Shown piece after piece: positions 4,712 to 57,338 of a stretch of DNA of 64,000 bases (position 1 is the first letter of the stretch; each line of letters starts with the position of its first letter). Made by a program: the position numbers and the translations under genes. The notes beneath the pieces were generated by a model. That model did no database searches, had not been told where the DNA came from, and saw nothing but the letters and a program-made list of their open reading frames with translations. Source of the stretch: an uncultured Lacinutrix sp. (lineage in GTDB: Bacteria; Bacteroidota; Bacteroidia; Flavobacteriales; Flavobacteriaceae). The stretch lies in NCBI RefSeq assembly GCF_947500325.1, contig NZ_CANMRQ010000008.1:62001-126000 (forward strand), in the 5' to 3' direction.

Positions 4712-5776
4712 TTATAATACTTTTTCTAATAATTCAATATAAATAGCGATACCTTCTTCTATTTCTTTTAGATAAATAAACTCATCTGCAGTATGAGAAC
4801 GCTTACTATCTCCCGGGCCTAATTTTAACGACGGACAATTAAGTACTGCCTGATCTGATAAGGTTGGAGAACCGTATGTTTGTCTACCTATATCTATCCC
4901 TGCTTTTACTAAATCATGGCTTACTGGTATAGAAGACGAATTTAATTTAAGACTTCTAGGCACCAACTTTTTACAAGGTGAATTATTAGTTAATAATTCT
5001 ATAACTTCTGTATTTGAATACTTATCGTTTACACGTACATCTATTACCAAATTCACATTAGCCGGTACTGCATTATGCTGTTTACCTGCATTAATTTGTG
5101 TTACTGTCATTTTAACTTCTCCTAAAACATTAGAGACTTTAGAAAATTTAAAATCTCTAAACCATTTTAGAGCCTCTATTGTATTATAAATTGCATTATC
5201 ATTGTTAGGATGTGCGGCATGACTTGGCGTGCCATTTATTTCTGCATCAAAAACAACAAGCCCTTTTTCGGCAATAGCTAAATGCATTAAAGTTGGTTCT
5301 CCAACAATAGCTACATCTATTTTTGGAATAATAGACAACATACTATTCAATCCATTAGCGCCACTATTTTCTTCTTCGGCAGAAGCAACTATTACCAAGT
5401 TATAATTTAAATGATCTTGATTATAAAAATGATTAAATGTAGCCAATAAAGACACTAAACAACCACCAGCATCATTACTTCCTAAGCCATATAATTTTCC
5501 ATCCTGAATTAGAGCATTGAATGGATCTTTAGTATAACCATTATTAGGTTTTACTGTATCATGATGAGAGTTCAATAATAGCGTTGGTTTGGCCTCGTCA
5601 AAATATTTATTAGTAGCCCAAACATTATTATTAGTTCTTTTAAAAGGAATATTGTTCGTTTCAAACCATTGCTCAATATGATTTGCCGTATCATTTTCTT
5701 CAGTAGAAAATGAAGGTGTTTTTATAAGCTTCTTTAACAAACTAATGGCTTCCCTATTTAATTCTTGATATTTCAT
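4712..5776 (-). CDS. argE: M20 family N-acyl-ornithine/citrulline deacylase (ArgE-like)
   Basis: M20 zinc amidohydrolase (354 aa) that should remove the acyl group from the arginine-pathway intermediate. The metal and catalytic motifs are visible: LNSHHDTVKP (first His/Asp), GLGSNDAGG (bridging Asp), ASAEEENSGANGL (catalytic Glu and Glu ligand) and VGEPT. I chose ATG at 5776, whose ATGA overlaps the argB stop, instead of a start at 5836 inside argB; MKYQELNREAISLL is a normal N terminus. Because the adjacent carbamoyltransferase uses acylated ornithine, the likely substrate is N-succinyl- or N-acetyl-citrulline rather than acetylornithine. DapE-type desuccinylase is the main alternative, but the operon argues for arginine. 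Confidence 0.88.
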   Translation of the reverse strand: MKYQELNREAISLLKKLIKTPSFSTEENDTANHIEQWFETNNIPFKRTNNNVWATNKYFDEAKPTLLLNSHHDTVKPNNGYTKDPFNALIQDGKLYGLGSNDAGGCLVSLLATFNHFYNQDHLNYNLVIVASAEEENSGANGLNSMLSIIPKIDVAIVGEPTLMHLAIAEKGLVVFDAEINGTPSHAAHPNNDNAIYNTIEALKWFRDFKFSKVSNVLGEVKMTVTQINAGKQHNAVPANVNLVIDVRVNDKYSNTEVIELLTNNSPCKKLVPRSLKLNSSSIPVSHDLVKAGIDIGRQTYGSPTLSDQAVLNCPSLKLGPGDSKRSHTADEFIYLKEIEEGIAIYIELLEKVL

Positions 5777-6549
5777 TTTTGAATGGTTGTATACTTTAGC
5801 GTTTTGTTGAATACTATTTCTGGTTTCCCAATACATACTGTCTTAATATTATTTTGAATGGCACGAAAACAATTATTTAGTTTAGGTAACATTCCATTTG
5901 CTATGATTCCTTTTTCTTTAAGTCCTTTATAACGCTCTGTAGTAATAGTTTCAATTACAGAATCTTCATTATTTACATCTTCTAGAACACCATTTTTTCC
6001 AAAACAATAATACAGTTCTGTTTCAAATACATTAGCCAACCCAATGGCTATTTCTGAAGCCACGGTATCTGCATTAGTATTAAGTAATTGTCCTTGTTTA
6101 TCGTGCGTAATAGCACAAAAAACTGGCGTTATATTACTATGTAATAGCAACTCTAAAATTTCAATATTTACTTTTACAACATCACCAACCAATCCATAAT
6201 CTATAGTTTTTACTGGTCGTTTTTTAGATATAACACAATTACCATCTGCACCAGAAAGGCCTATAGCATTACAATTATTAGCTTGTAGTTTAGCAACAAT
6301 ATTTTTATTTATTTTACCAGCATACACCATTGTTGCAATATCAAGTGTAATAGCATCTGTAACTCGCCTTCCATCAACCATATTAACCTCAACCTGCATT
6401 TTATTTGCTAATTGCGTTGCTAATTTTCCGCCTCCATGAATTAAAATTCTAGGTCCTTTTATTTTAGAAAACTCGAGTAAAAAGTTTTGTAACATTATCT
6501 CGTTATCTATAATATTCCCTCCTATTTTTACAACTTTCAAGACTGCCAT
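5773..6549 (-). CDS. argB: N-acylglutamate kinase
   Basis: Amino-acid-kinase-fold enzyme (258 aa) that phosphorylates N-acetyl- or N-succinyl-glutamate with ATP. KIGGNIID at residues 8-15 and LIHGGGKLA near 37-45 form the glycine-rich phosphate-binding loops. It lies 2 nt after the carbamoyltransferase stop and overlaps the deacylase start by 4 nt (ATGA), implying translational coupling. No N-terminal extension of the arginine-inhibited hexameric type is seen, so feedback control probably lies elsewhere. Confidence 0.93.
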   Translation of the reverse strand: MAVLKVVKIGGNIIDNEIMLQNFLLEFSKIKGPRILIHGGGKLATQLANKMQVEVNMVDGRRVTDAITLDIATMVYAGKINKNIVAKLQANNCNAIGLSGADGNCVISKKRPVKTIDYGLVGDVVKVNIEILELLLHSNITPVFCAITHDKQGQLLNTNADTVASEIAIGLANVFETELYYCFGKNGVLEDVNNEDSVIETITTERYKGLKEKGIIANGMLPKLNNCFRAIQNNIKTVCIGKPEIVFNKTLKYTTIQK

Positions 6550-12725: not shown

Positions 12726-13988
12726 TCATACTAAAAACTGAAACAAATCTGGTTTATCATTCAAATAATCTCCATAAAAATTATGCAACTTCATTTTAGT
12801 AATTAAAGGCTCTAAATCTTTTGAAGATTTTAGTTGTAACCCAACAACAGCAGCACCATTTTCACGATTGGTTTTTTTAGTATATTCAAAATGCGTGATA
12901 TCATCTGTAGGACTTAAAATATCGACTACAAACTCTCTTAAAGCACCTGCTCTTTGTGGGAACTTAATAATAAAATAGTGTTTTAAATTAGCATACAATA
13001 AAGCTCTCTCTTTAATTTCTGCTGTTCTTGTAATATCATTATTACTTCCGCTAACAACGCACACCACATTCTTTCCCTTTATTTCTTCTTTGTAAAAATC
13101 TAAAGCAGAAATACTAAGCGCTCCAGCAGGCTCGACCACAATAGCATCTTTATTGTACAAATCTAAAATAGTTTCACACACTTTGCCTTCTGGAACTGTA
13201 ATCATGTCTGATAGGTTCTGCTTACATATAGTATAATTTAAATCACCCACACGTTGCACAGCTGCACCATCTACAAACTTCTCTATATATTTTAATTCTG
13301 TGTTTCTATTATTCCTAAAAGATGTAGACATTGATGGTGCGCCTTCAGGCTCTACACCTATAATCTTTGTTTTTGGTGACAAGTATTTAAAAACAGTAGA
13401 TAACCCAGAAGACAATCCACCACCACCAACAGGAACAAAAATATAATCAACAGGTGTTTCAGTTTGCTTTAAAATTTCTAATGCAACTGTAGCTTGTCCT
13501 TCTATAACTTTTTCATCATTAAATGGATGAATAAACGTTTTATTTAATCGTTCACATTCTAATTTTGCTGCATAATAAGAATCGTCGAAAGTATCTCCTT
13601 CTAAAACTATTTCAATATACTCTTCCCCAAACATTTTTACTTGTTCCACCTTTTGATTAGGTGTTGGTGAAGGCATATAAATAGTTCCTTTTATTTTTAA
13701 TATTTTACATGATAAAGCTACACCTTGCGCATGATTACCAGCACTTGCACAAACAATTCCGTTTTCGATCTCAGTATTAGTAAGTGAAGACATTTTATTA
13801 TAAGCACCACGAATTTTATACGAACGTACTACTTGTAAATCTTCCCTTTTAAAGAGTACATTACAATTAAATTGTTTTGAATAATTTGCATTTGTGCTTA
13901 AAGGCGTAATTGATGCTACGCCTTTAAGTTTTTTAGCTGCGACTTCTACTGCTTCTATCGTTGGAAAATAAGTCGTCTGAACTTCCAT
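12726..13988 (-). CDS. ilvA: threonine dehydratase (threonine ammonia-lyase)
   Basis: PLP enzyme (420 aa) that converts threonine to 2-oxobutanoate, the entry to isoleucine. The PLP Lys is K58 in SYKIRGAYNKM, SAGNHAQGVA is the phosphate-side loop and PVGGGGLSSGL the glycine loop. Residues from about 335 on (LKHYFIIKFPQRAGALREFV...) form one ACT-like regulatory domain, the shorter IlvA type, so isoleucine feedback is expected. It is the last gene of ilvDBNCA, 2 nt after ilvC. Confidence 0.94.
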   Translation of the reverse strand: MEVQTTYFPTIEAVEVAAKKLKGVASITPLSTNANYSKQFNCNVLFKREDLQVVRSYKIRGAYNKMSSLTNTEIENGIVCASAGNHAQGVALSCKILKIKGTIYMPSPTPNQKVEQVKMFGEEYIEIVLEGDTFDDSYYAAKLECERLNKTFIHPFNDEKVIEGQATVALEILKQTETPVDYIFVPVGGGGLSSGLSTVFKYLSPKTKIIGVEPEGAPSMSTSFRNNRNTELKYIEKFVDGAAVQRVGDLNYTICKQNLSDMITVPEGKVCETILDLYNKDAIVVEPAGALSISALDFYKEEIKGKNVVCVVSGSNNDITRTAEIKERALLYANLKHYFIIKFPQRAGALREFVVDILSPTDDITHFEYTKKTNRENGAAVVGLQLKSSKDLEPLITKMKLHNFYGDYLNDKPDLFQFLV

Positions 13989-13990
13989 GA

Positions 13991-15493
13991 TTATACTAGA
14001 GCAGCCTCTTGAGATTTAACATCAGATTTTATAATTTTCATTGCGGTCATTGCACTTCGCAATTCTTTACCAATACTTTCAATTGGATGATTTCTAATAG
14101 CATCATTTACAGCAATAAGCTCTATATTATCTACTCCATTTGATGTATTAAATGGTTTGCCTATAATATCTGTAGTTACCGTTTTCATAAACTCAGTCAA
14201 TAAAGGCTTACAAGCATGATCAAATAAATAACAACCATATTCTGCTGTATCAGAAATCACTCTATTCATTTCAAACAACTTCTTTCTGGCAATTGTGTTA
14301 GCGATTAATGGTAATTCATGAAGCGATTCATAATAAGCAGAATCTTCAATAATACCAGCACTTACCATTGTTTCGAACGCTAATTCTACTCCAGACTTAA
14401 CAAAAGCAACTAACAACACTCCATTATCAAAGTATTCTTGTTCTGAAATATGTTCTGTAGTTAATGCTGTTTTTTCAAAAGCAGTTTCTCCAGTTTCTGC
14501 TCTCCATTTTAATAAATTAGTATCGTTATTCGCCCAATCCTCCATCATCGTTTTTGAAAAATGACCAGAGATTATATCATCCATATGCTTTTCAAATAAA
14601 GGCCGCATAATAGCTTTTAATTCTTCAGATAATTTGTAAGCTTTTATTTTCGCTGGATTAGATAAGCGGTCCATCATATTTGTAATACCTCCATGCTTTA
14701 ATGCCTCAGTAATCGTTTCCCATCCAAATTGAATTAATTTTGCTGCATAACCAGCTTCAATACCTTCATTTACCATTTTATCAAAACTTAAAATAGCACC
14801 CGTTTGTAACAAACCACATAAAATCGTTTGTTCTCCCATTAAATCACTCTTAACCTCAGCCACAAAAGACGATTGTAAGACACCTGCTTTATGACCACCT
14901 GTTGCCACTGCATATGCTTTTGCCTGTTCCCAACCTTTATTTTCAGGATCATTTTCAGGATGTACAGCAATTAATGTAGGCACACCAAAACCACGTTTAT
15001 ACTCCTCACGCACTTCTGTACCTGGACACTTTGGAGCAACCATAATTACAGTAATATCTTTACGAATTTGCGTTCCTTCTTCTACAATATTAAAGCCATG
15101 AGAATAAGATAATGTTGCTCCTTTTTTCATTAAAGGCATCACTGCTTTAACAACATTTGTATGTTGCTTATCTGGCGTTAGATTTAATACTAAATCTGCC
15201 GTAGGAATTAAATCTTCGTATGTTCCTACATTAAATTCATTAGTGCTTGCATTAACAAATGAAGCTCTTTTTTCATCTATAGCTTGTTGCCGTAATGCAT
15301 AAGAAATATTTAATCCAGAATCTCTCATATTCAATCCTTGATTTAGACCTTGTGCTCCACAACCAACAATTACAATTCTTTTATTTTTTAATGAGCTTAC
15401 TCCGTCTTCAAATTCTGAAGCACCCATAAAGCGACATTTTCCTAATTGTTCTAATTGAGTTCTTAACGGTAATGTGTTAAAATAATTTGTCAT
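13991..15493 (-). CDS. ilvC: ketol-acid reductoisomerase (class II)
   Basis: NADPH/Mg-dependent isomeroreductase common to valine and isoleucine synthesis. At 500 aa it is the long class II form with a duplicated knotted domain. [20 protein letters not shown] (residues 42-61) is the Rossmann motif, followed by [25 protein letters not shown] and [13 protein letters not shown] are conserved blocks near the active site. It lies between ilvN (12 nt) and ilvA (2 nt). Confidence 0.96.
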
Positions 15494-15505
15494 TTTTTTA
15501 TTTTT

Positions 15506-16033
15506 TTAATTGAATGCTTCTAGCATTTTTGAAATTTCCATAGGTTCTTTAGTAACTGCAATACGTCCAGCACGAACAAATTGCATAATTCCAAAAGGTT
15601 TTAATTCTCTATATAATAATTCGATTTCGTTTTTTCTTCCCGATTTTTCAATCACGAAAAATTCTTTATTCACTGTAACAATTCTAGAATTACTTTCTTT
15701 AATTATATTTTGAATTTGACGTTCTTCGAACAGTAAGTCTGATTTTACTTTAAACAAACAAGATTCTTGATAAATTGTATCATCATCTGTATGGTAATAT
15801 GCTTTAATAACTTCTACTTGCTTTTCAATTTGACCAATGATTTTTTTCATCTGCTCTTCTGAAACATTAATCAATATTGTAAATCTTGATACACCATCTA
15901 TTTCTGAAACTGAAATATTGATACTTTCAATATTTATATGTCTACGCTGAAAAATTGCTGAAACACGGTTAAGCAATCCGATGTTGTTTTCTGTATATAC
16001 TGTTACTGTGTATAATTGTTTTTCTTTTTCCAT
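15506..16033 (-). CDS. ilvN: acetolactate synthase small (regulatory) subunit
   Basis: Regulatory subunit (175 aa) that binds branched-chain amino acids and controls IlvB. The N-terminal ACT domain is clear: YTVTVYTENNIGLLNRVSAI followed by FQRRHINIESINIS (about residues 8-41), the valine-binding loop region. A C-terminal domain completes the usual two-domain form. It follows ilvB after 2 nt. Confidence 0.94.
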   Translation of the reverse strand: MEKEKQLYTVTVYTENNIGLLNRVSAIFQRRHINIESINISVSEIDGVSRFTILINVSEEQMKKIIGQIEKQVEVIKAYYHTDDDTIYQESCLFKVKSDLLFEERQIQNIIKESNSRIVTVNKEFFVIEKSGRKNEIELLYRELKPFGIMQFVRAGRIAVTKEPMEISKMLEAFN

Positions 16034-16035
16034 AA

Positions 16036-17769
16036 CTAACTTAATCTTATATCTGAAACACTTGCGCCTGTAGGTATCATAGGAAATACATTCGCTTCTT
16101 TTTCTACTGAAACCTCTAAAAAATAAGCTTCTTTACACTGCATCATTTCTTCTACAGCTGCTGCTAATTCTTCACGTTTAGTGACTTTTTTAGCATTAAT
16201 TGAATAGCCTTTAGCTATAGCTACAAAATCAGGGTTTTGAATTTCTGTTGACGCATAACGCTTATCAAAAAACAGTTGCTGCCATTGACGCACCATCCCT
16301 AAAAAATCATTATTTAAAACCACTATTTTAACAGGGACTTTAGTTTGAAAAATAGTTCCTAATTCTTGAATAGTCATTTGATAACCACCATCACCAATTA
16401 TGGCTACAACCTCTCGATTTGGCGCAGCCATTTTTGCACCAATAGCTGCTGGTAATGCAAATCCCATTGTACCCAAACCACCAGAAGTAATATTACTTTT
16501 AGTTTCATTAAACTCTGCATAACGACAGGCAATCATTTGATGTTGACCAACATCGCTAACAATAGCTGCTTTACCGCCACTTTGTTTGTTTATTTCTTTA
16601 ACAACTTCGCCCATAGTTAAACCTTCTTTAACAGGGTATAAATCGTTATTTATAACTTTCTCTAGTTCTATTTTATATAAGTCTTTAAATTTTTGATGCC
16701 ATTCTTCATGTCTATTTTTATTTAACAATGGCAATAAAGCTTTCAATGTTTCTTTAGAATTACCTAAAACTGCCACATCAGTTTTTACATTTTTATCTAC
16801 CTCAGCTGGGTCGATTTCAAAATGAACTACTTTTGCTTGTTTAGCATAGGTCTCTAAATTTCCAGTTACTCGATCATCGAAACGCATACCAATCGCAATT
16901 AATAAATCGCATTCATTTGTTAACACATTAGGTGCATAATTACCATGCATACCAACCATACCAACATTTAGCGGATGATTAGTCTCTATTGCTGAAGCGC
17001 CTAAGATTGTCCAAGCTGATGGCAAGCCGGCCTTTTCAATAACAGCTTTAAATTCTGTTTCTGCTGCTCCTAATATCACACCTTGTCCCCAAACCACTAA
17101 TGGTTTCTTAGCTTCATTAATTAACTTAGCTGCAGCGTATAAACTCTCATTAGATGTTTCTGGAACTGGCTTATAACTCCTAATAGATTCACATTTTTTA
17201 TAAGTAAAATCTAATTCCTCAAATTGAGCATCTTTAGTAATATCTATTAATACTGGTCCTGGCCTTCCACTTTTAGCGATATAAAATGCCTTTGCTAAAA
17301 CTTCTGGAATTTCAGATGCTTTTGTTATTTGATGGTTCCACTTAGTTACTGGAGTTGAGATACTAATAACATCAGTTTCTTGAAAAGCATCTGTTCCTAA
17401 TAAATGAGATCCTACTTGCCCTGTAATACACACCATAGGAGTAGAATCTATTTGAGCATCTGCTATACCGGTAATTAAATTGGTAGCCCCTGGACCAGAC
17501 GTAGCTATTGCTACACCAACTTTTCCAGAAATACGAGCATAGCCTTGTGCAGAATGTGTAGCTCCTTGTTCGTGACGTGTTAAAACATGTTGAATCTCGT
17601 CTTGAAACTTATACAATTCGTCATAGACAGGCATAATAGCGCCACCAGGGTAGCCATATAGAATATCTACACCTTCAGCAATTAAAGAACGTACGACTGC
17701 TTCACTACCAGAAATACGAGTTGTTGTTATTGTTTCTTTTACTTTAGCTGTTATTGTTTCTGTATTCAT
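16036..17769 (-). CDS. ilvB: acetolactate synthase large (catalytic) subunit
   Basis: ThDP/FAD enzyme (577 aa) that condenses pyruvate with pyruvate or 2-oxobutanoate. GYPGGAIMPVYDEL and the catalytic-Glu region RHEQGATHSAQGYARISG (about residues 64-81) are in the N-terminal Pyr domain. GDGGYQMTIQELGT.. is the ThDP diphosphate/Mg motif near residue 458. The N terminus MNTETITAKVKETITTTRISGSEAVV is the only good start. It lies 30 nt after ilvD and 2 nt before ilvN. Confidence 0.96.
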   Translation of the reverse strand: MNTETITAKVKETITTTRISGSEAVVRSLIAEGVDILYGYPGGAIMPVYDELYKFQDEIQHVLTRHEQGATHSAQGYARISGKVGVAIATSGPGATNLITGIADAQIDSTPMVCITGQVGSHLLGTDAFQETDVISISTPVTKWNHQITKASEIPEVLAKAFYIAKSGRPGPVLIDITKDAQFEELDFTYKKCESIRSYKPVPETSNESLYAAAKLINEAKKPLVVWGQGVILGAAETEFKAVIEKAGLPSAWTILGASAIETNHPLNVGMVGMHGNYAPNVLTNECDLLIAIGMRFDDRVTGNLETYAKQAKVVHFEIDPAEVDKNVKTDVAVLGNSKETLKALLPLLNKNRHEEWHQKFKDLYKIELEKVINNDLYPVKEGLTMGEVVKEINKQSGGKAAIVSDVGQHQMIACRYAEFNETKSNITSGGLGTMGFALPAAIGAKMAAPNREVVAIIGDGGYQMTIQELGTIFQTKVPVKIVVLNNDFLGMVRQWQQLFFDKRYASTEIQNPDFVAIAKGYSINAKKVTKREELAAAVEEMMQCKEAYFLEVSVEKEANVFPMIPTGASVSDIRLS

Positions 17770-17799: not shown

Positions 17800-19476
17800 C
17801 TAAAACTCATCTGTTACACATCCTTTTGATGCTGATGAAACTGTTTTTGCATATTTATAAAGTACGCCGCGTTTAAATTTAAGAGCAGGCTCTTTCCAAT
17901 ATTGTTTTCTCTGCTTTAATTCTTCTTCAGGAACTTCTAAGACAATACTATTTGTTTCTGCATCGATAGTGATATAGTCTCCATCTTTAACAAGAGCAAT
18001 TGTCCCTCCTTCTTGTGCTTCAGGTGTTATATGACCAACTACAAAACCATGCGTTCCTCCAGAGAAACGGCCATCGGTAATTAAGGCAACATCTTTTCCT
18101 AAACCAGCACCCATAATCGCTGCTGTTGGTTTTAACATTTCTGGCATTCCTGGTCCACCTTTTGGCCCTTCATAACGAATAACAACAACATCTCCTTTTT
18201 CTACTTTCCCGTCTCTAATACCATCATTAGCATCGTATTCCCCTTCAAAAACCTTCGCTTTGCCTCGGAAACGCAAACCTTCTTTTCCTGTTATTTTTGC
18301 AACACTTCCTTCTTTAGCAAGGTTCCCATATAACATTCTTAAATGCCCTGAAATTTTAATTGGTTTTTCTATTGGTTTTATAACCTCTTGCCCTTCAGAC
18401 AAATCATTAACATCTAATAAATTCTCAGCAATAGTTCTTCCTGTAACAGTTAAACAATCACCGTGAATTAAGCCTTTTTTCAAAAGATATTTTAATACTG
18501 CAGGTATACCTCCAACTGCATGTACATCTTCCATTAAGTATTTTCCACTAGGTTTTAAATCTGCTAAGAAAGGAGTAGTATCACTAATCTCTTGAAAATC
18601 TTTTAGAGTAAAATCAATATCTGCTGCCCTTGCAATTGCTAAAAAATGCAATACTGCATTTGTAGAACCTCCTAAAATCGTTACTAATCTCACTGCATTT
18701 TCAAGAGATTTTCGTGTTATAATATCGCTTGGTTTTATGTCTTTTTCTAATAAAACCTTAATAGCTTCTCCAGCTTTAATAGCTTCTTTCTTTTTTGCAT
18801 CACTAAGCGCAGGGTTTGAGGAATTAAAAGGAAGCGTCATGCCTAAAGCCTCTATAGCAGATGCCATAGTATTTGCCGTGTACATACCTCCACACGCTCC
18901 AGCTCCTGGACATGCTTTTTCAACAATATTTTGATATTCATTCTCGGTCATAGTACCAGCTACTTTACTTCCCCAAGCTTCAAAAGCAGAAACGACATCT
19001 AACTTCTTTCCATTATGACATCCAGAATCTATGGTACCTCCATATACTAAAATACTAGGTCTATTTAATCGAATCATTGCCATTAAAGCACCTGGCATAT
19101 TTTTATCACAGCCAACAACGGTAATTAATCCATCGTAACTCATCGCTTGCACTACAGTTTCCATTGAATCTGCAATAATATCTCGTGATGGCAACGAATA
19201 ACGCATACCTGGAGTTCCCATAGAAATACCATCACTAACTCCTATTGTATTAAAGATTAAACCAACTACATCTTCATTTTTAGTTCCTTGCTTGGATAAC
19301 TTTGCTAAATCATTTAAATGCATGTTACAAGGATTCCCTTCATAACCAGTACTTGCGATACCAATAATAGGTTTATAAAAATCCTCTTTTGTTAACCCAA
19401 TAGCATGTAACATAGCTTGAGCTGCTGGTTGCGTTGGATCCTGAGTGACTGTTTTACTGTATTTATTTAATATCAT
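17800..19476 (-). CDS. ilvD: dihydroxy-acid dehydratase
   Basis: Fe-S dehydratase (558 aa) that gives 2-oxoisovalerate and 2-oxo-3-methylvalerate. Cluster cysteines are seen in [14 protein letters not shown] and [30 protein letters not shown] and the C-terminal block around [15 protein letters not shown] are typical. It is the first structural gene of ilvDBNCA. The untranslated leader upstream (19477-19897) carries two Ile/Val leader peptides and two terminators; the last 165 nt before the start are AT-rich and hold no further hairpin that I can see. Confidence 0.96.
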
Positions 19477-19643
19477 TTTAATTATATCTTCTTTTATATT
19501 TCGAAATTATATGTTTTACTTTTCTTCATTTTTCTATTCCTTTAATACTTCTTAAATTCAAAGCATTCTTTACACACCTAAAAACTTAATTATCAATTAC
19601 TTAAATTCAATTTACTGTTACATCCAACTATGTTTTTTTTCAT

Positions 19644-19678
19644 AAAAAAAAGCCTGCATCAAAATTGATACAGGCTTT
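19644..19678 (-). terminator. second attenuator terminator of the ilv leader
   Basis: Read on the minus strand, AAAGCCTGTATCAA pairs with TTGATGCAGGCTTT with one mismatch and is followed by a run of eight T: an intrinsic terminator upstream of ilvD. Its 5' arm (19665-19673) is also perfectly complementary over 9 nt to a segment just after leader peptide 2 (19697-19705), so a competing antiterminator can form. This is the classical amino-acid attenuator layout. Confidence 0.85.
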
Positions 19679-19706
19679 ATTTTACAAAACAGCTTTCTGT
19701 ATCAAC

Positions 19707-19760
19707 TCAGGTCGAGTTAATAATGACAATAATTATAATAATGCTGTTTACTAATTTCAT
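19707..19760 (-). CDS. ilv leader peptide 2 (17 aa)
   Basis: The minus-strand ORF reads MKLVNSIIIIIVIINST with a TGA stop. Seven Ile and two Val among 17 residues, in a near-continuous run, are what attenuation control by charged tRNA-Ile/Val requires. The last codons and stop overlap a small AACTC/GAGTT hairpin. The segment right after the stop (19697-19705) can pair with the 5' arm of the terminator at 19644-19678. A ribosome stalled at the Ile run would free that segment (read-through); one that reaches the stop would cover it (termination). It has no role as a protein. It lies between the first and second attenuator terminators. Confidence 0.85.
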   Translation of the reverse strand: MKLVNSIIIIIVIINST

Positions 19761-19773
19761 ATTGTAACTGAAT

Positions 19774-19803
19774 AAAAAAAGCCTTCCGTTTCGGAAGGCT
19801 TTT
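19774..19803 (-). terminator. first attenuator terminator of the ilv leader
   Basis: A perfect 12-bp stem (AAAAGCCTTCCG with CGGAAGGCTTTT, 3-nt loop), followed on the minus strand by seven T. It lies 31 nt after the stop of leader peptide 1. The terminator's 5' arm segment 19795-19800 is complementary over 6 nt to 19837-19842, which overlaps the last codons and stop of leader peptide 1, so an alternative antiterminator is possible. Confidence 0.85.
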
Positions 19804-19834
19804 AAATATTAAATTTATTTTTATACACCATTCC

Positions 19835-19897
19835 TTAGCCTTGTGAAATAATCACAATGACAATAATTGAAATGATATTTACTATTTGTTTTTTCAT
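19835..19897 (-). CDS. ilv leader peptide 1 (20 aa)
   Basis: The minus-strand ORF reads MKKQIVNIISIIVIVIISQG, with eight Ile and three Val. It is the promoter-proximal of two leader peptides and is followed by its own terminator (19774-19803). The codons CAA-GGC-TAA at its end overlap the AAGGCT that could pair with the terminator's 5' arm. Stalling at Ile/Val codons would leave this pairing free and let transcription proceed to leader 2. The promoter must lie in the 70 nt up to the protease stop at 19971, but no full consensus is visible there. Confidence 0.85.
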   Translation of the reverse strand: MKKQIVNIISIIVIVIISQG

Positions 19898-19970
19898 TTG
19901 AATGATAAAATTATAAAACTTATTTTAATAAACGACTATTTTTTGTTTTTTTTATTTAAAAACAATCTAA

Positions 19971-22900
19971 TTACTTTATCATTATTTTAGTAATTACAGC
20001 TTCAGCCTCACTACTTAATCTTACTTTCAAAAAGTAAACTCCTGCCAATAGACTTCTATTAAGTTCAATTGTTTTTACTCTTTCTGAACCTTTCTGCTCT
20101 CTTTTTTCAAAAATTTTCATACCTGCAACATCATAAAGTTCCATTTGCACTTCGCCTATTTCTGAAGAATTAAAGTTGATATTTATTTTACCATCTGTTA
20201 CTGGATTTGGATGTACATTAATAATATTGGTATTAGTTTTAATGCCTTCAATTTTTTCTTTATATACCAATTTAACTAAAGAACTACCAAATATATTTAA
20301 AGTATAATCTTCATATTCTCCATAACGCACATCATTTGCACCTGTATTACATGAATTATTTTCTGTATCGTAATAAGACACTAACACACGCATTCTTGTC
20401 AATCCGTTTATAGCTGCTTGTGGAACAGTTACAGAAACACTCCCTAAAAGGTTATTAGTTTTTGTCAATGTATAAAACTCGCCTGCGTCAGTAAAATCGC
20501 CATCACTATTCCAATCAAACCAAGCGTATATTTCATCATTTGCTCCACCTTGATAACCAATAATATTCACTTTCAAGTTATAACTTGCTCCTACATTTAC
20601 GCTTGTAGATATAGACGTAAAATCGTCATAACCAGTAGCGTTTCGAGTTGACGCATTATTTATTCCAGCAAACTCAACATTGGACACTCCTTCTGGCCCA
20701 TCATTTCCTGTTGCAGAACAATACACAACATTAGACTGGCAAGGCGGACATGAACCACCACAATCAACTCCTGTTTCTGTACCATTCTGTATACCATCTG
20801 AACATGTTGGCGTTGGTGTACCTCCACCTGAAATACTTATGTTATAATCTTCAATTTCTCCATAAGCAATCGCCCCAATTCCACAAGAATTATTTCCATC
20901 TGCTGCATTATAACCTAATGCAATACGCATTCTTGTTGTTCCTGTTGTTGCTGTAGATGGCACTGCTATTGATAATTCACGAACAGCATTACTAGGCGCG
21001 GTAGTGACATTGAATTTCTCACCTGTATCTGTAAAGTCGCCATCTGCATTCCAATCAAACCAAGCATACACTTCATTGCTTGCTCCACCTTGATAACCTA
21101 CAAAAGTGACTTTTAAATTATAAGAACTTCCACTAGAAACACTAGCTACTGTTCCAGAAGTATAATCATCATAGCCATTTGTTGTAGCTCTAACTGAAGT
21201 ATTATTTATACCTGCAAAATTTACATTTGTAATATAATCATCTGTATTATTGCTACTTGTTATATCACAATAGGTTACATTAGGAGGTATTGTATCACAT
21301 GGCGCACATGAACCTCCACAATCAACACCTGTTTCATCTCCATTCTGGGTACCATCATTACAGGTTGGACTAGAACTTTCGCCTATAATAAACACAAAAT
21401 AATCTTCTACTTCATTACCCGTAGCTGATGTTGTTCCACAAGGCTCAGGGCTAGTATGTATTTTATAACGCACTCTTAATCTGGTTGCACCATTTTGTGC
21501 GGTATTAGGAACTACAACTGTTGTTGTAACACCACCAGGACCATTAGTTTTCAATAAAACTTCTTCACCTGCATCCGTGAAGTCTCCATCTTTATTCCAA
21601 TCAATCCAAGCTCCAAAATAATTAGGATCATGGAAATCGATTCCCGGATTTACTGTTAAAGCAACAGACTCTCCTTTAACAAGGTTGGTTCCTAGGTTAG
21701 TAAAATCGGAATACCCACTATTTCCACTTTTATTATTGATATCACCAAAAATAACTTCGTCTATATAATTTGAACCTTGAAAACCTGCGTCACAATAATC
21801 TGTAGGCATAGGAGCAGAGTTTCCATCTGTTATACTAAAATTAGCATTTGTAATATCGAAAAAGATATTATTCGTTCCTCTTACCATAATTCTATTTACA
21901 CCTCCTTGATTGTCTGGTATAGTAATTTGATGAGAACCATCATTAGGTACCGCAGAAGCTAACGATATTGGGTATGTATTTCCACCATCTGTAGATAATA
22001 AAATATCTACAGTAGCCGCATTCACCCCATTTCCTGTGGTTCCTGCAACGTTCCAGGTTACCGTTTGCGTAGAGCCTACTGGCGCGTCAAATCTAGTATT
22101 TTGAGAAGTTACTACAAAAGGACCAGCAGTTCCACTTACTGTAATAACAGCATCCTTAGTATCTGTATTACCTCCTCCTGGATGATTATCCCTTACAGTA
22201 AATCTAAAATTCATCGTTCTGGCAACTGAAGGTACTACCTCCCATTCAGAAGAAGCATTTCCTGCTTTTATCGTAGTAAGGTTAGGCATATATCGATTTG
22301 AAGATGCTGAAGGAGGTTTATAACGGAATAAAGGACCGCCAGTTGACGTAGCCCGAGGAGGCATTGGAGCTATTTCTTTATCCATTTGATTCCAAGTATA
22401 CGTTAGTTGATCGGCAGCTGTATTAACATCAGTAGCTGACCCTTCTAATATAAATGGAGTAGATCTTGGAATCGTATAGTTACCTCCTATACTAGCTGTT
22501 GGCGCACTATTACCTACTGATTTTGTGGTACCACAACCTGCTGTGTTTACAATATGATTCCACATTTCATCTATTTGTTTAGCATGAAAAAAAACATATT
22601 GCGTATTTTCTGTATTAGGAGCACAACCTGTATACGCCATGATACTATTACCTCCTCCTGGTTCAACAGCTCCTTCGTCTAGACGATTACCACCACATGA
22701 GTTATTAAATGAATGGTTAGCACCGAATTGATGACCTATTTCGTGAACGAATGTGCGAAAGAAATAATCTGCGACAGATGTGAAAGGATGTGCACCTGTG
22801 GATCCTTCAGCTTTTTTACTATCAACACATACAGAATTTAAAGCTCCACGTCCAGTCCCATCTGAATCTAAAACATGACCAATATCATAGTTAGCGTTAC

Positions 22901-23995: not shown

Positions 23996-25462
23996 CTATA
24001 TCCTTGGCAAATCACCTTCAGATTTTAATGGTAAATTGGATTTACCCATTAAATATTTATCAACATGATGCGCAGCTTGACGACCTTCTGAAATTGCCCA
24101 TACAATTAAAGATTGTCCACGACGCATATCTCCCGCACTAAAAATTCCAGGAATATTTGTAGCATAATCTTTTATTGTTGCTTTTACATTAGTTCTAAAA
24201 TCCAGTTCCAAACCAAATTGTTCTGGTAATGTTTTTTCAGCCCCTGTGAAACCTAAAGCTAATAATGCAAGATCACATTCCCATTCTTTTTCTGTTCCAG
24301 CAATCTCTTTTAATTCTGGTCGCTCACCTTCTTTAAACACCCATTCTACCTGAACAGTTATTAAACCTTTTAAATTGCCGTTTTCATCCCCCAAAAACTC
24401 TTTAGTAGACACACTAAAACAACGTTTTACGCCTTCTTGATGTGATGAACTTGTACGTAACCTCATAGGCCAATATGGCCAAGGCTGATTTACTGGACGT
24501 CCTTTTGAAGGCTTATTTAAAATCTCAAAATTTGCTATTGATTTTGCTCCTTGACGATTAGATGTCCCAATACAATCTGAACCAGTGTCTCCGCCACCAA
24601 TAACAATAACATTCTTGTTTTTTGCAATCAATTCTTCTTTAAAACCTGCAATACCGTCAACACGTTGGTTATTTTGTTTTAAAAAATCCATAGCCTGAAC
24701 AACCCCTTTTAAATGTGCTCCTTTTATTGGCATACCTCTTCTTATTGTTGAACCGCCACACAATATAATTGCATCGTACTCATTTTTTAATCGCTCTACA
24801 CTTACATTTTTCCCTACATAAGCATTAGTTTCAAACACAATACCTTCTTCCTTTAACACCTCTAGTCGCCTATCGATAACATCTTTTTGTAATTTAAAAT
24901 CTGGAATACCATAACGTAGTAATCCACCGATTTTTTCATCACGCTCAAAAACTGTTACTAAATGCCCTACACGATTTAATTGCTGTGCAGCAGCTAAACC
25001 CGATGGCCCAGAACCAACAATCGCAACCTTTTTTCCTGAACGTTCTTTTGGAGGTCGAGCTACAATCCAACCTTCGGAAAAGGCTTTTTCTATAATATTT
25101 TTCTCAATATTCTCTATAGCTACTGGATCTTCATTAATTCCTAACACACATGATTCCTCACATGGAGCAGGACATAAACGCCCTGTGAATTCTGGAAAAT
25201 TATTCGTTGAATGCAAAATTTCTGCAGCTTTTTTCCAGCGCCCTTTATACACATTATCATTAAAATCTGGAATTAAATTCCCTAAAGGGCAGCCACTATG
25301 ACAAAATGGAACACCACAATCCATACAACGGGCACCTTGATCTTTTAGTTCCTTCTCTTTCATTGGAACCGTAAACTCTTTATAATTTTTAAGTCGGTTT
25401 TCAACCTTATCGTAAGTTTCGACTTGTCTTTCAATTTCTAAAAATCCTGTTGTCTTTCCCAT
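23996..25462 (-). CDS. gltD: glutamate synthase small subunit
   Basis: NADPH-oxidising beta subunit (488 aa) that feeds electrons to GltB. N-terminal cysteine clusters CMDCGVPFCHSGCPLGNLIPD (about 41-61) and CPAPCEESC (near 96) bind Fe-S. VAIVGSGPSGLAAAQQL (about 147-163) is the FAD motif, and VIGGGDTGSDCIGTSNRQGA the NADPH motif. It begins 2 nt after the gltB stop, so both subunits come from one mRNA. Confidence 0.96.
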   Translation of the reverse strand: MGKTTGFLEIERQVETYDKVENRLKNYKEFTVPMKEKELKDQGARCMDCGVPFCHSGCPLGNLIPDFNDNVYKGRWKKAAEILHSTNNFPEFTGRLCPAPCEESCVLGINEDPVAIENIEKNIIEKAFSEGWIVARPPKERSGKKVAIVGSGPSGLAAAQQLNRVGHLVTVFERDEKIGGLLRYGIPDFKLQKDVIDRRLEVLKEEGIVFETNAYVGKNVSVERLKNEYDAIILCGGSTIRRGMPIKGAHLKGVVQAMDFLKQNNQRVDGIAGFKEELIAKNKNVIVIGGGDTGSDCIGTSNRQGAKSIANFEILNKPSKGRPVNQPWPYWPMRLRTSSSHQEGVKRCFSVSTKEFLGDENGNLKGLITVQVEWVFKEGERPELKEIAGTEKEWECDLALLALGFTGAEKTLPEQFGLELDFRTNVKATIKDYATNIPGIFSAGDMRRGQSLIVWAISEGRQAAHHVDKYLMGKSNLPLKSEGDLPRI

Positions 25463-35991: not shown

Positions 35992-36004
35992 CAGTCTTAA
36001 ACTA

Positions 36005-36090
36005 TTAAGAGGACGGATTTGACTGATTGCAACCTCATAAAAAAATGCTAAAGGCAGTGTAAACTTCCTTGGACGCTTTCGTCAAATCAT
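36005..36090 (+). ncRNA. SAM-II-type riboswitch (long-loop variant) upstream of metK
   Basis: The leader holds stem GAGG/CCTC (36009-36012 with 36033-36036) enclosing GGATTTGACTGATTGCA, then an A-rich stretch and ATGCTAAAGGC. This matches the SAM-II core as I remember it (GATTTAAC..TATTGCA, stem, then GCTAAA). An additional perfect 8-bp pairing joins 36016-36023 (GATTTGAC) to 36081-36088 (GTCAAATC), giving a pseudoknot with a loop longer than the proteobacterial type. SAM-I hallmarks are absent. It should lower MetK synthesis when SAM is high, probably at translation because no terminator lies before the ATG at 36111. Confidence 0.75.
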
Positions 36091-36110: not shown

Positions 36111-37367
36111 ATGGCGTATTTATTTACATCAGAAAGTGTGTCTGAAGGACACCCAGATAAAGTAGCAGATCAAATTAGTGATGCTTTAATTGATAACTTT
36201 TTAGCTTTTGATAAAGACTCCAAGGTTGCCTGTGAAACATTAGTAACAACAGGTCAAGTGGTCTTAGCAGGAGAAGTAAAATCTAAAACCTATTTAGACG
36301 TACAAAAAATAGCTAGAGACACAATTAATAAAATTGGATACACCAAGAGCGAATACATGTTCGACGGCAATTCATGTGGTGTTTTTAGTGCTATTCATGA
36401 ACAAAGTGACGACATTAACAGAGGTGTAGATAGAGACACTAAAGAAGAGCAAGGCGCTGGAGATCAAGGCATGATGTTTGGCTACGCGACAAACGAGACA
36501 GATAACTACATGCCTTTAGCATTAGACTTGTCTCATAAAATACTAATAGAATTAGCTGAATTACGTCGAGAAAATAAAGACATCACCTATTTAAGACCAG
36601 ATTCCAAAAGTCAAGTAACTATTGAATATAGCGACGACAATATACCACAACGTATAGATGCTATTGTTGTTTCAACTCAACATGATGATTTTGATAGCAG
36701 CGACGAAACAATGCTTGCAAAAATTAGAAAAGACATCGTAGAGATTCTTATTCCAAGAGTTATCGCTCAATTGCCAGAAGAAATTAAAGCTCTATTTAAT
36801 AACGATATTAAATACCACATCAACCCAACAGGTAAATTTGTTATTGGTGGTCCACACGGAGACACAGGATTAACTGGCCGTAAAATCATAGTAGACACCT
36901 ATGGAGGAAAAGGAGCTCATGGTGGTGGCGCCTTCTCAGGGAAAGATCCTAGCAAAGTAGATAGAAGTGCAGCATATGCTACTAGACACATTGCAAAAAA
37001 TCTAGTCGCTGCTGGTGTTTGTGAAGAAATCCTAGTACAAGTAAGTTATGCTATTGGAGTTGTTGAACCTATGGGAATCTTTGTAGACACATATGGAACA
37101 TGCCCTTTTAACATGACTGATGGTGAAATTGCTGAGAAAATATCAAAAGTATTTGACATGCGACCAGCTGCGATTGAAGAGCGTTTAAAATTAAGAAACC
37201 CAATGTACAGTGAAACTGCTGCATATGGACATATGGGTAGACAAAATGAAACAGTTACCAAAACTTTTTCCCAACCTTACGGTGACGATTTAACTATAGA
37301 CGTTGAACTATTTACATGGGAGAAGCTAGATTATATAGAAAAAGTAAAAGCTGAATTTGGACTATAA
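36111..37367 (+). CDS. metK: S-adenosylmethionine synthase
   Basis: Makes SAM from methionine and ATP (418 aa). [21 protein letters not shown] at the N terminus, [12 protein letters not shown] near residues 119-130 and [19 protein letters not shown] around 269-287 are the methionine, P-loop and phosphate signatures. A SAM-II-type riboswitch lies directly upstream, consistent with feedback by the product. It is monocistronic with a terminator 20 nt downstream. Confidence 0.97.
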
Positions 37368-37387
37368 TCTATAACCACATACACAAT

Positions 37388-37416
37388 AAAAAACCTTCAA
37401 AATTGAAGGTTTTTTT
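37388..37416 (+). terminator. terminator after metK
   Basis: AAAAAACCTTCAA pairs with TTGAAGGTTTTTT with a 2-nt gap, followed by a T run. It lies 20 nt past the metK stop. Confidence 0.85.
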
Positions 37417-37518
37417 GTTTACCAAAAGAAATATATTTTATATCAAGGTAGGATTTTCAACAGTATTAGTGTTATATCTATATAATCGCTATATAAATCT
37501 AAAAACGAAACTCTTGTT

Positions 37519-54785: not shown

Positions 54786-54997
54786 ATTAAATTTTTAGTT
54801 TGATTAGTTTTTAATGAACGCTAATGTAATAAAATCAGTGTGAAGTAAAAAATATTTTGAAACTGACATTTTTTTAATAATTTTTTTATCAATTTAATAA
54901 CACTAATTTAACTTACAACTGATAATGAACACAATAGCTAGCAAAGATTCGAACCCAAGGATATAAACGACTGATTAACAATTATTAGAGCATAAAA

Positions 54998-55023
54998 AAA
55001 GCCTACTCTATAGAGTAGGCTTT
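54998..55023 (-). terminator. terminator after the M1 peptidase
   Basis: A perfect palindrome, AAAGCCTACTCTA with its complement, followed on the minus strand by seven T, 20 nt past the stop of the M1 peptidase gene. The rest of 54786-54997 (upstream of hppA) shows no gene. Confidence 0.85.
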
Positions 55024-55043
55024 ACTTTATAATATTTAAAATA

Positions 55044-57338
55044 TTAGTTTTTTACTTTATTCTTAAATTTATCAAACTCACCTTGCTTAACTTCTTTTGG
55101 CCAAGAATTATTAGATGTGTCTACATCTGCCGTTTCTAAATCTGGATCAACAGTAATGCTAACAATTTCCTTATCTGATGCTACAGCTTTTCTAGCTGTA
55201 TTTTCATTCAATCTCCATATTTGAGCAGGATATGTTTCTCTTTTAGAAGTTCCATCTGCATATTTATACTCAACAATAATTGGCATAACTAAACCTCCTG
55301 GTTTTTCAAATTTCACACTATAAAAGAATTTAGGTTGCTTCATATTTGCTCTTTCTTGTGGCGTAAAGTTATCCATCAAATATGTTTTAAGTGGAGTAAT
55401 ACTTTCTGCTGACTCACTCTTCATAGATTCCTGAAAATCTGGACTGCCTTCTTCAACAAAGAATACTAGGTTATTTTCATCTAAACGACGTGATCTTTTT
55501 GCCATGTCTAATCCTTTTTGATTTGGCTTAGCTGTGATATAGTATTTTTTCACCTCACTAATTCCAATATCTACATAATCAGTAGTATAAAACCAACCTC
55601 TCCAAAACCAATCTAAATCGAATGCAGAAGCATCTTCCATTGTACGGAAAAAATCTTCTGGAGTAGGGTGTTTAAACATCCAACGCTGAGCATATTCTTT
55701 AAATGCATAATCGAATAATTCTGGCCCCATAACAGTTTCACGCAGAATATTTAATGCTGTTGCAGGTTTCCCATAGGCATTATTTCCAAATTGGTATGTA
55801 TTTAAACCTTTAGTCATAATTGGAGCTATATAATTTTGATCTCCACCCATGTAATACGTAATATTTTTTGCAGGTCCACGACGTGATGGATATGCTGTTT
55901 GTCCAGGTGATAACGCTGCAGGATACCATTTAGCAAAATCTTGTTCAGCTACATATTGCATAAAAGTGTTTAATCCTTCATCCATCCATGTCCATTGACG
56001 CTCGTCACTATTTACAATCATTGGGAAGAAATTATGTCCAACTTCATGTATAATTACAGACATCATCCCAAATTTAGTTCTGTCTCCAAATTTTCCATTT
56101 TTATCTGGACGACCATAATTCCAACAAATCATAGGATACTCCATACCTTGTTGCTTTGCATGTACAGAAATTGCTTTATGATATGGATAATCGAACGTCA
56201 TACGAGAGTATGATTTTAAAGTACTTGCTACGGCTTTTGTAGACCAATCTTCCCATAATGGATTTCCTTCTTTAGGATACATTGATACAGCCATTACATC
56301 TCTATTCCCAATTTTAACAGCCATCATATCCCAAATGAAACGTCTTGATGTTGCAAAACCAAAATCACGTACATTTTCTGCATATAATTTCCAAGTTTTC
56401 TTTTTAGTAGACTTCTTTTTTTCTGCTGCTTCAGCTTCGGCTTGAGTAACAATTACAACTGGCTCATCGTAAGATTTTTTAGCTTTATTGTAACGCTTCA
56501 TCATCTCCTTTGTATATACCTCTTTTCTATTCGTTAATACACCTGTACCATCCAGAATATGATCTGCAGGGACAGTAATATTTACTTCAAAGTTTCCAAA
56601 CGGCAATGCAAATTCATCACGTCCCCAGAATTGAGAGTTTTGCCATCCTTCTACATCACTATATACAGCCATTCTTGGATAAAACTGCGCTATAACATAA
56701 GCTCTATTATCGTCTTCTTTAAAATACTCATAGCCTGAACGTCCTCCTTGTTTTGTATGATCGTTAATATTATACCACCATTTAATTGAGAACGTAAATT
56801 TACCACCAGGGTTTAAAGCTTGAGGCATATCTATTCGCATCATAGTACGATTTATCATGTGAGATAATGCTTTACCGTTTTCATCTTTAACTGCCTCAAT
56901 ATTAAAACCGCCATCAAAACGTTCTGCCATATAGGCACTTGTAAAACTTGAAGGTGATTGTGCTGGTGAAATACCACTACCTCTAATTAAAGGGGATTTT
57001 GAATCTCTAGCACGTACATTTTGATCTAATTGAACCCATAAATACTTTAAAACGTCTGGAGAGTTATTTGTGTAAGTAATAGTTTCAAAGCCAGATAATT
57101 TAGCGTTAACATCATCTAATTCTAAATCCATTTTATAATCAGCTTGCTGCTGGTAATATGCAGATCCAGGAGCACCAGATGCAGCACGATACATGTTAGG
57201 ACTTGAGAACTCGTCGTATAGCTGCTTGAATTTGTTGTTATTTTGGTGACCTTGCTGTCTTTCTTTTTTTTCTTGTTGCGCAAATACACCAACAGTAACG
57301 AATAAAAAAGAAAGAAAATAGTACTTTAATTTGTTCAT
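55044..57338 (-). CDS. M1 family metallopeptidase (aminopeptidase-like)
   Basis: 764 aa with signal peptide MNKLKYYFLSFLFVTVGVFAQ. The zinc site is HEVGH (431-435) with Glu454 at the family spacing (HExxH-x18-E). The exopeptidase motif GMEYP (398-402) stands for the usual GxMEN. The N-terminal region (60-270) is the beta-sandwich that precedes the catalytic domain. It probably trims peptides in the periplasm. It is the distal gene of a cluster with a DUF6702-like protein and two CarboxypepD_reg-like proteins. Confidence 0.9.
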   Translation of the reverse strand: MNKLKYYFLSFLFVTVGVFAQQEKKERQQGHQNNNKFKQLYDEFSSPNMYRAASGAPGSAYYQQQADYKMDLELDDVNAKLSGFETITYTNNSPDVLKYLWVQLDQNVRARDSKSPLIRGSGISPAQSPSSFTSAYMAERFDGGFNIEAVKDENGKALSHMINRTMMRIDMPQALNPGGKFTFSIKWWYNINDHTKQGGRSGYEYFKEDDNRAYVIAQFYPRMAVYSDVEGWQNSQFWGRDEFALPFGNFEVNITVPADHILDGTGVLTNRKEVYTKEMMKRYNKAKKSYDEPVVIVTQAEAEAAEKKKSTKKKTWKLYAENVRDFGFATSRRFIWDMMAVKIGNRDVMAVSMYPKEGNPLWEDWSTKAVASTLKSYSRMTFDYPYHKAISVHAKQQGMEYPMICWNYGRPDKNGKFGDRTKFGMMSVIIHEVGHNFFPMIVNSDERQWTWMDEGLNTFMQYVAEQDFAKWYPAALSPGQTAYPSRRGPAKNITYYMGGDQNYIAPIMTKGLNTYQFGNNAYGKPATALNILRETVMGPELFDYAFKEYAQRWMFKHPTPEDFFRTMEDASAFDLDWFWRGWFYTTDYVDIGISEVKKYYITAKPNQKGLDMAKRSRRLDENNLVFFVEEGSPDFQESMKSESAESITPLKTYLMDNFTPQERANMKQPKFFYSVKFEKPGGLVMPIIVEYKYADGTSKRETYPAQIWRLNENTARKAVASDKEIVSITVDPDLETADVDTSNNSWPKEVKQGEFDKFKNKVKN

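Follow-up and report, generated by a model that had tools for sequence, protein, structure and literature searches.

What would two leader peptides, each with its own intrinsic terminator, accomplish in front of a single biosynthetic operon? Ribosome-mediated attenuation is a classic control of amino acid operons, as in the enteric ilvGMEDA, trp, his, and thr leaders. In the stretch of DNA analyzed here (64,000 nucleotides from an uncultured Lacinutrix sp., referred to as the window), NCBIfam assignments identify a minus-strand operon as ilvDBNCA, with a leader of about 420 nt. Its upstream neighbor, also on the minus strand, is a secreted-peptidase-like gene with a T9SS sorting domain that ends at 19971, and two minus-strand peptide-plus-terminator units lie between this position and the start of ilvD at 19476. 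Unit 1 belongs to class A and unit 2 to class B of the catalog described below. The features, in order of transcription, are as follows.

19835..19897, minus strand: leader peptide 1 (class A), MKKQIVNIISIIVIVIISQG, with Ile plus Val at 11 of 20 residues and stop codon TAA at 19837-19835
19841..19857, minus strand: hairpin of the last Ile/Val codons, TTGTGA (19857-19852) with TCACAA (19846-19841), from the sequence
19827..19834, minus strand: 5' arm of the unit 1 antiterminator, GGAATGGT, the one conserved in class A
19777..19803, minus strand: terminator 1 (class A), from the terminator scan
19707..19760, minus strand: leader peptide 2 (class B), MKLVNSIIIIIVIINST, with Ile plus Val at 9 of 17 residues and stop codon TGA at 19709-19707
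19704..19718, minus strand: short, weak hairpin across the stop codon of peptide 2, AACTC (19718-19714) with GAGTT (19708-19704), from the sequence
19697..19705, minus strand: antiterminator 5' arm of unit 2, TTGATACAG, with its partner at 19673-19665, from the sequence and the class B alignment
19649..19678, minus strand: terminator 2 (class B), from the terminator scan
17800..19476, minus strand: ilvD, dihydroxy-acid dehydratase, the first structural gene (TIGR00110 and NF002068 above cut-off)
12726..17769, minus strand: ilvB, ilvN, ilvC, and ilvA (TIGR00118, TIGR00119, NF003557, and NF006390 above cut-offs)

Two minus-strand Ile/Val-rich peptides, each followed by an intrinsic terminator, had been described in the initial annotation and can be read directly in the sequence; a scan of the window and its randomization agreed. 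Exactly two terminator-like sites occurred in 19300-20400 (19803-19777 and 19678-19649), where 0.2 were expected. Out of four Ile/Val-rich ATG ORFs on both strands of the window (12 to 30 amino acids, at least 45% Ile plus Val), the two with a terminator within 60 nt were peptides 1 and 2, and ten Markov-1 randomized windows yielded no Ile/Val peptide pairs with terminators. The leader has the elements by which an attenuator is recognized, a short ORF rich (by sequence) in the regulated amino acids and an intrinsic terminator before the structural genes, and the perfect 9-bp pairing claimed for unit 2 (19705-19697 with 19673-19665) was likewise present. Two other terminator-like hairpins in the window, at 54985-55048 (minus strand) and 37338-37460, gave weak matches to the class A or B models described below, and the window scan paired no Ile/Val-rich peptide with either.

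Direct sensing of a tRNA or metabolite by a T-box or riboswitch-type RNA, with the peptides as by-products, is very unlikely. Rfam placed no family in the leader region at the gathering threshold, and a permissive scan found nothing there above its gathering score. The best weak match was Thr_leader (RF00506; 39.1 bits against a threshold of 55); Phe_leader (RF01859) scored 32.6 bits against 55, so both stayed below the level for membership. Nothing favors direct sensing beyond the general presence of structured RNA, whereas conservation was concentrated in the peptide, the stop-codon arm, and the terminator, and runs of Ile/Val codons were kept across the catalog although the residues varied. 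Elsewhere in the window, at 36003-36061 on the plus strand, a SAM-II riboswitch scored 64.1 bits against a gathering score of 44.

For comparison across loci, a total of 199 ilvD upstream stretches were gathered, with a few genomes present twice and named loci outside the family included; four fragments (L012, L013, L015, and L016) and one contig end (L129) were left out. A pattern catalog assigned 55 stretches to A, 24 to B, 14 to AB, and 106 to none before exclusions. Fourteen off-target, ambiguous, or far-upstream loci were then removed manually (L009, L025, L063, L065, L067, L069, L078, L079, L092, L111, L119, L122, L157, and L186), units with fewer than five Ile/Val residues or with repeated sequence were removed, and the B unit of L166 was entered manually. 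The resulting catalog held 55 A units, including peptide 1, and 29 B units, including peptide 2. Class A units had a GCCTTCC-loop-GGAAGGC terminator and a typical peptide near MKKQILNIISIIVIVIISQG, and class B units had a GCCTGTATC-loop-GATACAGGC terminator and a peptide with a run such as IIIIIVII. Terminators 1 and 2 matched the covariance models of their classes with E values of 1.2e-13 and 2.7e-12, respectively, though each model was built in part from the window's own sequence. The class A alignment contained 50 of the 55 units (without L042, L054, L055, L071, and L095), and two rows of the class B alignment were trimmed at the 5' end.

The catalog bears on the proposal that terminator 1 merely ends transcription of the upstream peptidase gene, peptide 1 being there by chance. 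That gene reads in the same direction, and its end at 19971 is separated from terminator 1 by no further terminator-like site, but the combination of class A peptide and terminator recurred in 55 cataloged units, with promoter-like boxes before the peptide. In several A loci a different gene, one ending in GDLPRV or similar, was seen by eye to end upstream, and wherever this was looked at the peptide and terminator were conserved despite the different upstream gene, making this explanation scarcely credible. A gene of the window at 23996-25462 ends in GDLPRI, which by eye resembles the ends found upstream of several class A units.

Covariation in the ilvD upstream regions of Flavobacteriaceae, suggested at the outset as a check on both terminators and antiterminators, was found for the terminators of both classes. 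In class A, 94.7% of terminator cells were paired, with two-sided changes in 5 of 10 pairs; in class B the values were 99.3% and 4 of 10. Antiterminators were kept with almost no covariation. The class A antiterminator was paired in 84.3% of cells, compared to 42 to 73% for slid partners, with two-sided changes in 0 pairs, and the class B antiterminator was paired in 90.8%, compared to 21 to 41%, with two-sided changes in 1 pair. Near absence of covariation is expected if the left half of the terminator must fit two partners, and as such is no positive proof. Of 100 dinucleotide shuffles per unit, no more than 5 did as well as the arm in 24 of the 55 A units and 20 of the 29 B units. For the window itself, none of 100 shuffles was as good as the antiterminator of unit 2, and the antiterminator of unit 1 was no better than shuffles (14 of 100 as good).

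The position of the unit 1 arm required revision. A 6-bp antiterminator had been placed at 19842-19837 with 19800-19795, and this pairing exists, but the arm conserved in class A is GGAATGGT, after the stop codon, rather than AAGGCT. GGAATGGT lies directly 3' of AAGGCT and pairs with 19799-19793 around a bulged T, the shared arm being the left half of terminator 1 (CCTTCC, 19798-19793). AAGGCT is an extra pairing in the window, where the duplex energy favors it. In class B the 5' arm is TGATACAG, which often includes the TGA stop codon.

A second structure of class A is built from the last Ile/Val codons and is possibly a pause or spacer hairpin. It exceeded synonymous-codon shuffles in 33 of 55 units; the value for the window's own unit 1 was not significant (0.125), from a folded stretch that ended at the AAGGCT arm and clipped the hairpin. 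All four pairs of the hairpin core had two-sided changes, but 73 of 500 shuffles matched that count; the covariation score was reached by 1 of 500 shuffles and the 82.0% pairing by none. A corresponding hairpin before the arm in class B was rejected as weak, with only 3 of 29 units beating synonymous shuffles. The stop-codon hairpin of peptide 2 was 68.9% paired in the class B alignment, yet a slide by −1 scored higher, making the assignment ambiguous.

How could these elements sense amino acid supply? If Ile- or Val-tRNA were uncharged, a ribosome would stall on the Ile/Val run, which ends approximately 13 to 16 nt before the antiterminator arm, and the freed arm would pair with the left terminator half, allowing RNA polymerase to continue. 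If charged tRNA were plentiful, the ribosome would reach the stop codon and cover the arm, and the terminator would form. The spacing in the catalog is compatible with such a device: the last Ile/Val codon is followed by the arm after 13 to 16 nt in 33 of the 55 class A units and after 14 to 19 nt in 21 of the 29 class B units. A codon-arm distance of this kind is about where a stalled ribosome, judged by its footprint, just leaves the arm free.

The scheme was modeled by folding each unit at the point where transcription has just cleared the left half of the terminator, with a ribosome-sized stretch forced unpaired. With the ribosome on Ile/Val codons, the modeled pairing of the left terminator half with upstream sequence averaged 0.81 in class A and 0.78 in class B, and with the ribosome at the stop codon it fell to 0.10 and 0.37. 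Pairing was higher for the Ile/Val stall than for the stop codon in 55 of 55 A and 27 of 29 B modeled units. Ile/Val codons stood out only in part, since other sense codons still gave means of 0.55 (A) and 0.60 (B). The model placed the last Ile/Val codon at 0.72 (A) and 0.78 (B) and a position two codons further at 0.28 and 0.54. The folding thus predicts, for both classes, an arm exposed by an Ile/Val stall and covered at the stop codon, less clearly for the class B stop (0.37) and also less clearly for unit 1 of the window, given its 14 of 100 shuffles. In the enteric trp model, an untranslated leader terminates by default through pairing of segments 1 and 2. Here, the modeled pairing without a ribosome mask was intermediate (0.53 in A and 0.46 in B), and clean default termination of an untranslated leader is therefore not predicted.

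Of special importance for two attenuators is whether one transcript meets both. A Bacteroidota-type −7 box, TAnnTTTG, is described for Flavobacteriaceae (PMC9723704), and the region contains these further candidate sites.

19906..19913, minus strand: −7 box of a candidate upstream promoter, TAATTTTA, 8 nt ahead of peptide 1 (consensus TAnnTTTG)
19553..19627, minus strand: three-box array, perhaps an operator (19627-19616, 19596-19586, and 19561-19553), with spacing as in relatives by eye
19502..19509, minus strand: −7 box of a candidate second promoter, TAATTTCG, located after terminator 2 and before ilvD

Boxes of this type closely preceded peptide A in 31 of 55 units, where 9.0 were expected; the box of the window has one mismatch and falls outside these 31. 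Before peptide B they occurred in 13 of 17 B-only leaders (3.1 expected) and in none of 12 tandem leaders (3.6 expected). Since promoter-like boxes precede only the first peptide, one transcript should meet both units, and the tandem looks, from the placement of these sites, like a series on a single transcript. Box spacing also suggests a very short 5' untranslated region for the first peptide. Two independent promoters, one per attenuator, would instead let the units work in parallel. A generic sigma-70 scan did find a 10-of-12 match inside peptide 2 (19760-19732), but sigma-70 sites were fewer overall than in shuffles (5 compared to 8.0), only 16 nt separate the stem of terminator 1 from the start of peptide 2, and the −7 box of B-only leaders is missing from the tandems. 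We regard the parallel arrangement as improbable.

A more serious challenge comes from the DNA after terminator 2. The three boxes, with consensus sequences TTGAACATCATA, CTGATAATCAG, and TTGAATTTA, were sought in all 199 loci. The first box, with up to three mismatches, was present in 111, where 41.6 were expected by chance; because this chance level is high, the evidence weighs through the fixed spacing, with the second box at +31 in 46 and at +32 in 15 boxed loci and the third at +66 in 60 and at +67 in 17. Of the 111 boxed loci, 86 had a promoter-like site before ilvD, compared to 10.9 expected, and so did 37 of the remaining 88, which lack the first box (8.7 expected). The window belongs to these 88, its box 1 having five mismatches to the consensus. 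The array is perhaps the operator of a regulator, and part of the operon's transcription may start after both attenuators, downstream of 19644, which the initial annotation had named as grounds for refutation. Folded RNA in 19648-19477 was considered and rejected, the consensus fold being empty in an alignment that included chance matches, and this stretch looks more like DNA sites than folded RNA.

These sites raise the alternative that, although the attenuators are genuine, most transcription in this strain bypasses them, with the promoter at TAATTTCG dominating and the upstream promoter decaying. The frequency of promoter-like sites before ilvD speaks for a bypass, as do the 51 of 111 boxed loci without an A or B unit by pattern, the off-consensus upstream −7 box of the window, and the lack of a leader in genus mates L002 to L005. 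The leader units were absent, in the stretches scanned, from L002 (the nearest IlvD relative in the tree) and from genus mates L003 to L005 and L008 to L010, which was counted against attenuators in series. In the window, however, the peptides, antiterminator arms, and terminators are all intact and match the models well (these sequences being part of the models), and array box 1 has diverged, from a box with a chance expectation of 41.6 in 199 loci. A dominant bypass is a real possibility, though a clearly less likely one than use of the attenuators.

Ribosome-mediated attenuators in series remain our favored reading: conservation, terminator covariation, arms at the stop codons, and promoter placement make it likely that two such attenuators lie on one ilvDBNCA transcript and sense a shared signal, which would keep leak low and steepen the response. 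Polymerase would pass unit A and then unit B, so that read-through would be the product of both, with a lower leak under Ile/Val plenty and a steeper response to the same shortage. We infer the stalling, the termination in the cell, the multiplication, and a useful share of transcripts from the upstream promoter.

The series arrangement had originally been proposed as a two-input or steeper switch on charged tRNA-Ile/Val, and the two-input part found no support. Across the 12 catalog tandems, mean Ile/Val/Leu counts were 6.4/2.3/1.0 and 6.3/2.0/1.0 for the paired peptides, with no difference in Ile, Val, or Leu content by paired tests (P values of 0.16, 0.77, and 0.75). The same comparison led to rejection of the idea that one unit serves Ile and the other Val. 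Because both peptides are equal in content, the same signal read twice is likelier than two inputs.

Are such tandems peculiar to this strain? Covariance models of A and B were applied to 199 family genomes, almost every one from a different genus; ilvD was found in 154, and 150 of these were compared with the model matches listed. Among those matches, A followed by B occurred in 19 of the 150 ilvD-bearing genomes, A only in 43, B only in 18, and neither, meaning no match at E 1e-3, in 70. The initial view that a tandem is unusual in a Bacteroidetes ilv leader does not hold for Flavobacteriaceae, where, at 19 of 150 ilvD-bearing genomes among the matches listed, it is not rare. The order was A then B in 19 of 19 tandems, with no case of B then A among the listed matches of the 150 genomes. 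One of the 19 (G104) is noncanonical, with three diverged units. Named carriers include Gaetbulibacter sp. S0825, Tenacibaculum caenipelagi, and an uncultured Lutibacter. Among the genomes fetched from the "neither" group, three had a pattern match, near ilvD in G037 and G055 and far from it in G148; ten other genomes showed the reverse, the covariance model finding more than the pattern.

Seven of the 19 tandems sit about 1 kb further upstream, before a branched-chain aminotransferase gene. Six of these genes pass ilvE cut-offs; the match of the seventh (in L271) covers only the first 123 amino acids, its frame being broken in the assembly. A class-wide model search of 247 genomes at E 1e-4 gave A matches in 11 genomes and B matches in 13. 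With the window's own genome excluded, all 12 genomes with B matches and 8 of the 10 with A matches were outside Flavobacteriaceae, to which seven listed genomes belong; the best out-of-family match (3.3e-6) was far weaker than the best match within the family.

Several loci carried other arrangements. In L271 (154-545), three attenuator units precede the aminotransferase gene, and units 2 and 3 are identical at 123 of 132 aligned bases. In Myroides sp. 1354 (L079, 4558-5061), there are seemingly at least three units before the aminotransferase gene, with an assembly gap inside the repeat. The later units in both loci are near-identical copies, and recent duplication does fit these extra units. 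Doubles with other terminator types were present in an uncultured Aquimarina (L055) and an Ignavibacteriae bacterium (L071). In the latter, at 5717-5974, two Ile-rich leader peptides precede ilvD, with terminator sequences other than those of A and B, possibly as an independent tandem.

A different leader was encountered among off-target class A matches. In L273 to L281, 9 of the 12 such matches fetched, Asn-rich leader peptides (e.g., MINNNNNNFNNPKF) are followed by a GCCTTCC-type terminator and directly precede a small GatC-like gene (in L278, Pfam GatC at 21.7 bits, cut-off 23). A second gene follows in the eight loci that are long enough, and in L278, the one locus tested, it matched Pfam Amidase at 7.7e-83. 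These leaders look like attenuators that would sense Asn-tRNA before a tRNA amidotransferase operon, an arrangement for which the literature search found no report.

The origin of the window's pair by recent duplication was rejected, as A and B units were no more alike within one genome than between genomes. Similarity was 0.52 for A-B within a genome, 0.52 for A-B between genomes, 0.64 for A-A, and 0.63 for B-B, which argues that both classes are old. A tree of IlvD with 79 rows (L045, L048, and L080 dropped as duplicates, labels set by hand, and L079 labeled "none" since its units are neither class A nor B) required 10 changes to explain AB and 29 to explain the full set of four labels. A simple history of gain or of loss was set aside, since these change counts fail to decide between the two. 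The constant order, together with the existence of two sequence classes, leads us to infer an ancestral A-plus-B leader with repeated loss. A fuller account, which we hold to be evenly balanced between right and wrong, is an ancient two-stage cascade for one signal, with noninterchangeable classes in a fixed order on one transcript, kept or lost piecemeal within the family, whose multiplied read-through would form an ultrasensitive gate; some lineages would have reached at least three units by tandem duplication, and the hairpins of regulatory codons may time pausing.

How does this leader compare with known systems? Ribosome-mediated attenuation has been reported for Corynebacterium ilvBNC (PMC11857589). 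Like the enteric and Corynebacterium attenuators, the ilvDBNCA leader combines an amino-acid-rich peptide, an alternative antiterminator, an intrinsic terminator, and a biosynthetic operon. Unlike them, it has two complete units in series, an arm at or across the stop codon, a class A hairpin built from the regulatory codons, and a 5' untranslated region that appears very short. In Salmonella mgtCBR, tandem leader ORFs answer ATP and proline, acting independently and additively, according to the available text of PMC3641672. That leader, as far as described there, shares with ilvDBNCA two short ORFs in one leader, both governing transcription of the genes that follow, a single transcript in our case being predicted from sequence. 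The ilvDBNCA peptides differ from the mgtCBR ORFs of that account in having the same Ile/Val content, their own intrinsic terminators, and biosynthetic genes downstream, and units answering different signals, as in mgtCBR, were not seen in the 12 tandems. Within the sources covered, mgtCBR was the sole described tandem of leader-ORF attenuators found, and its signals differ. Same-signal tandem leader-peptide attenuators, or such an ilv leader in Bacteroidota, were not found in the open-access literature, a scope that leaves aside most subscription papers. Excerpts of other reports describe leader-peptide-like small ORFs in Bacteroides thetaiotaomicron and, as a looser parallel, a second terminator in tandem in some rimP leaders. 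For Flavobacterium psychrophilum, which belongs to the same family as the window's source, "strong clues" were given for leader-peptide attenuation upstream of amino acid biosynthesis operons; the main text of that report (PMC9723704) does not contain "ilv," and its two mentions of "tandem" concern other things.

Repetition of a sensor also has precedents of another kind. Tandem riboswitches and T-boxes repeat sensing modules on one leader and have been proposed to steepen or combine responses, and the same argument for stacking has been made for tandem riboswitches. In these, a ligand or tRNA is sensed by RNA structure, unlike the ilvDBNCA leader, where the sensor would be a translating ribosome. 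If the reading in series is true, ribosome-mediated attenuators would emerge as evolvable modules whose stacking can shape a dose response. With A-only, B-only, A-plus-B, and triple leaders occurring naturally before the same operon, the value of stacking is directly testable. Control of branched-chain amino acid synthesis by leader peptides in Flavobacteriaceae would thereby gain a comparative footing, where the main text of PMC9723704 offers its clues without naming ilv.
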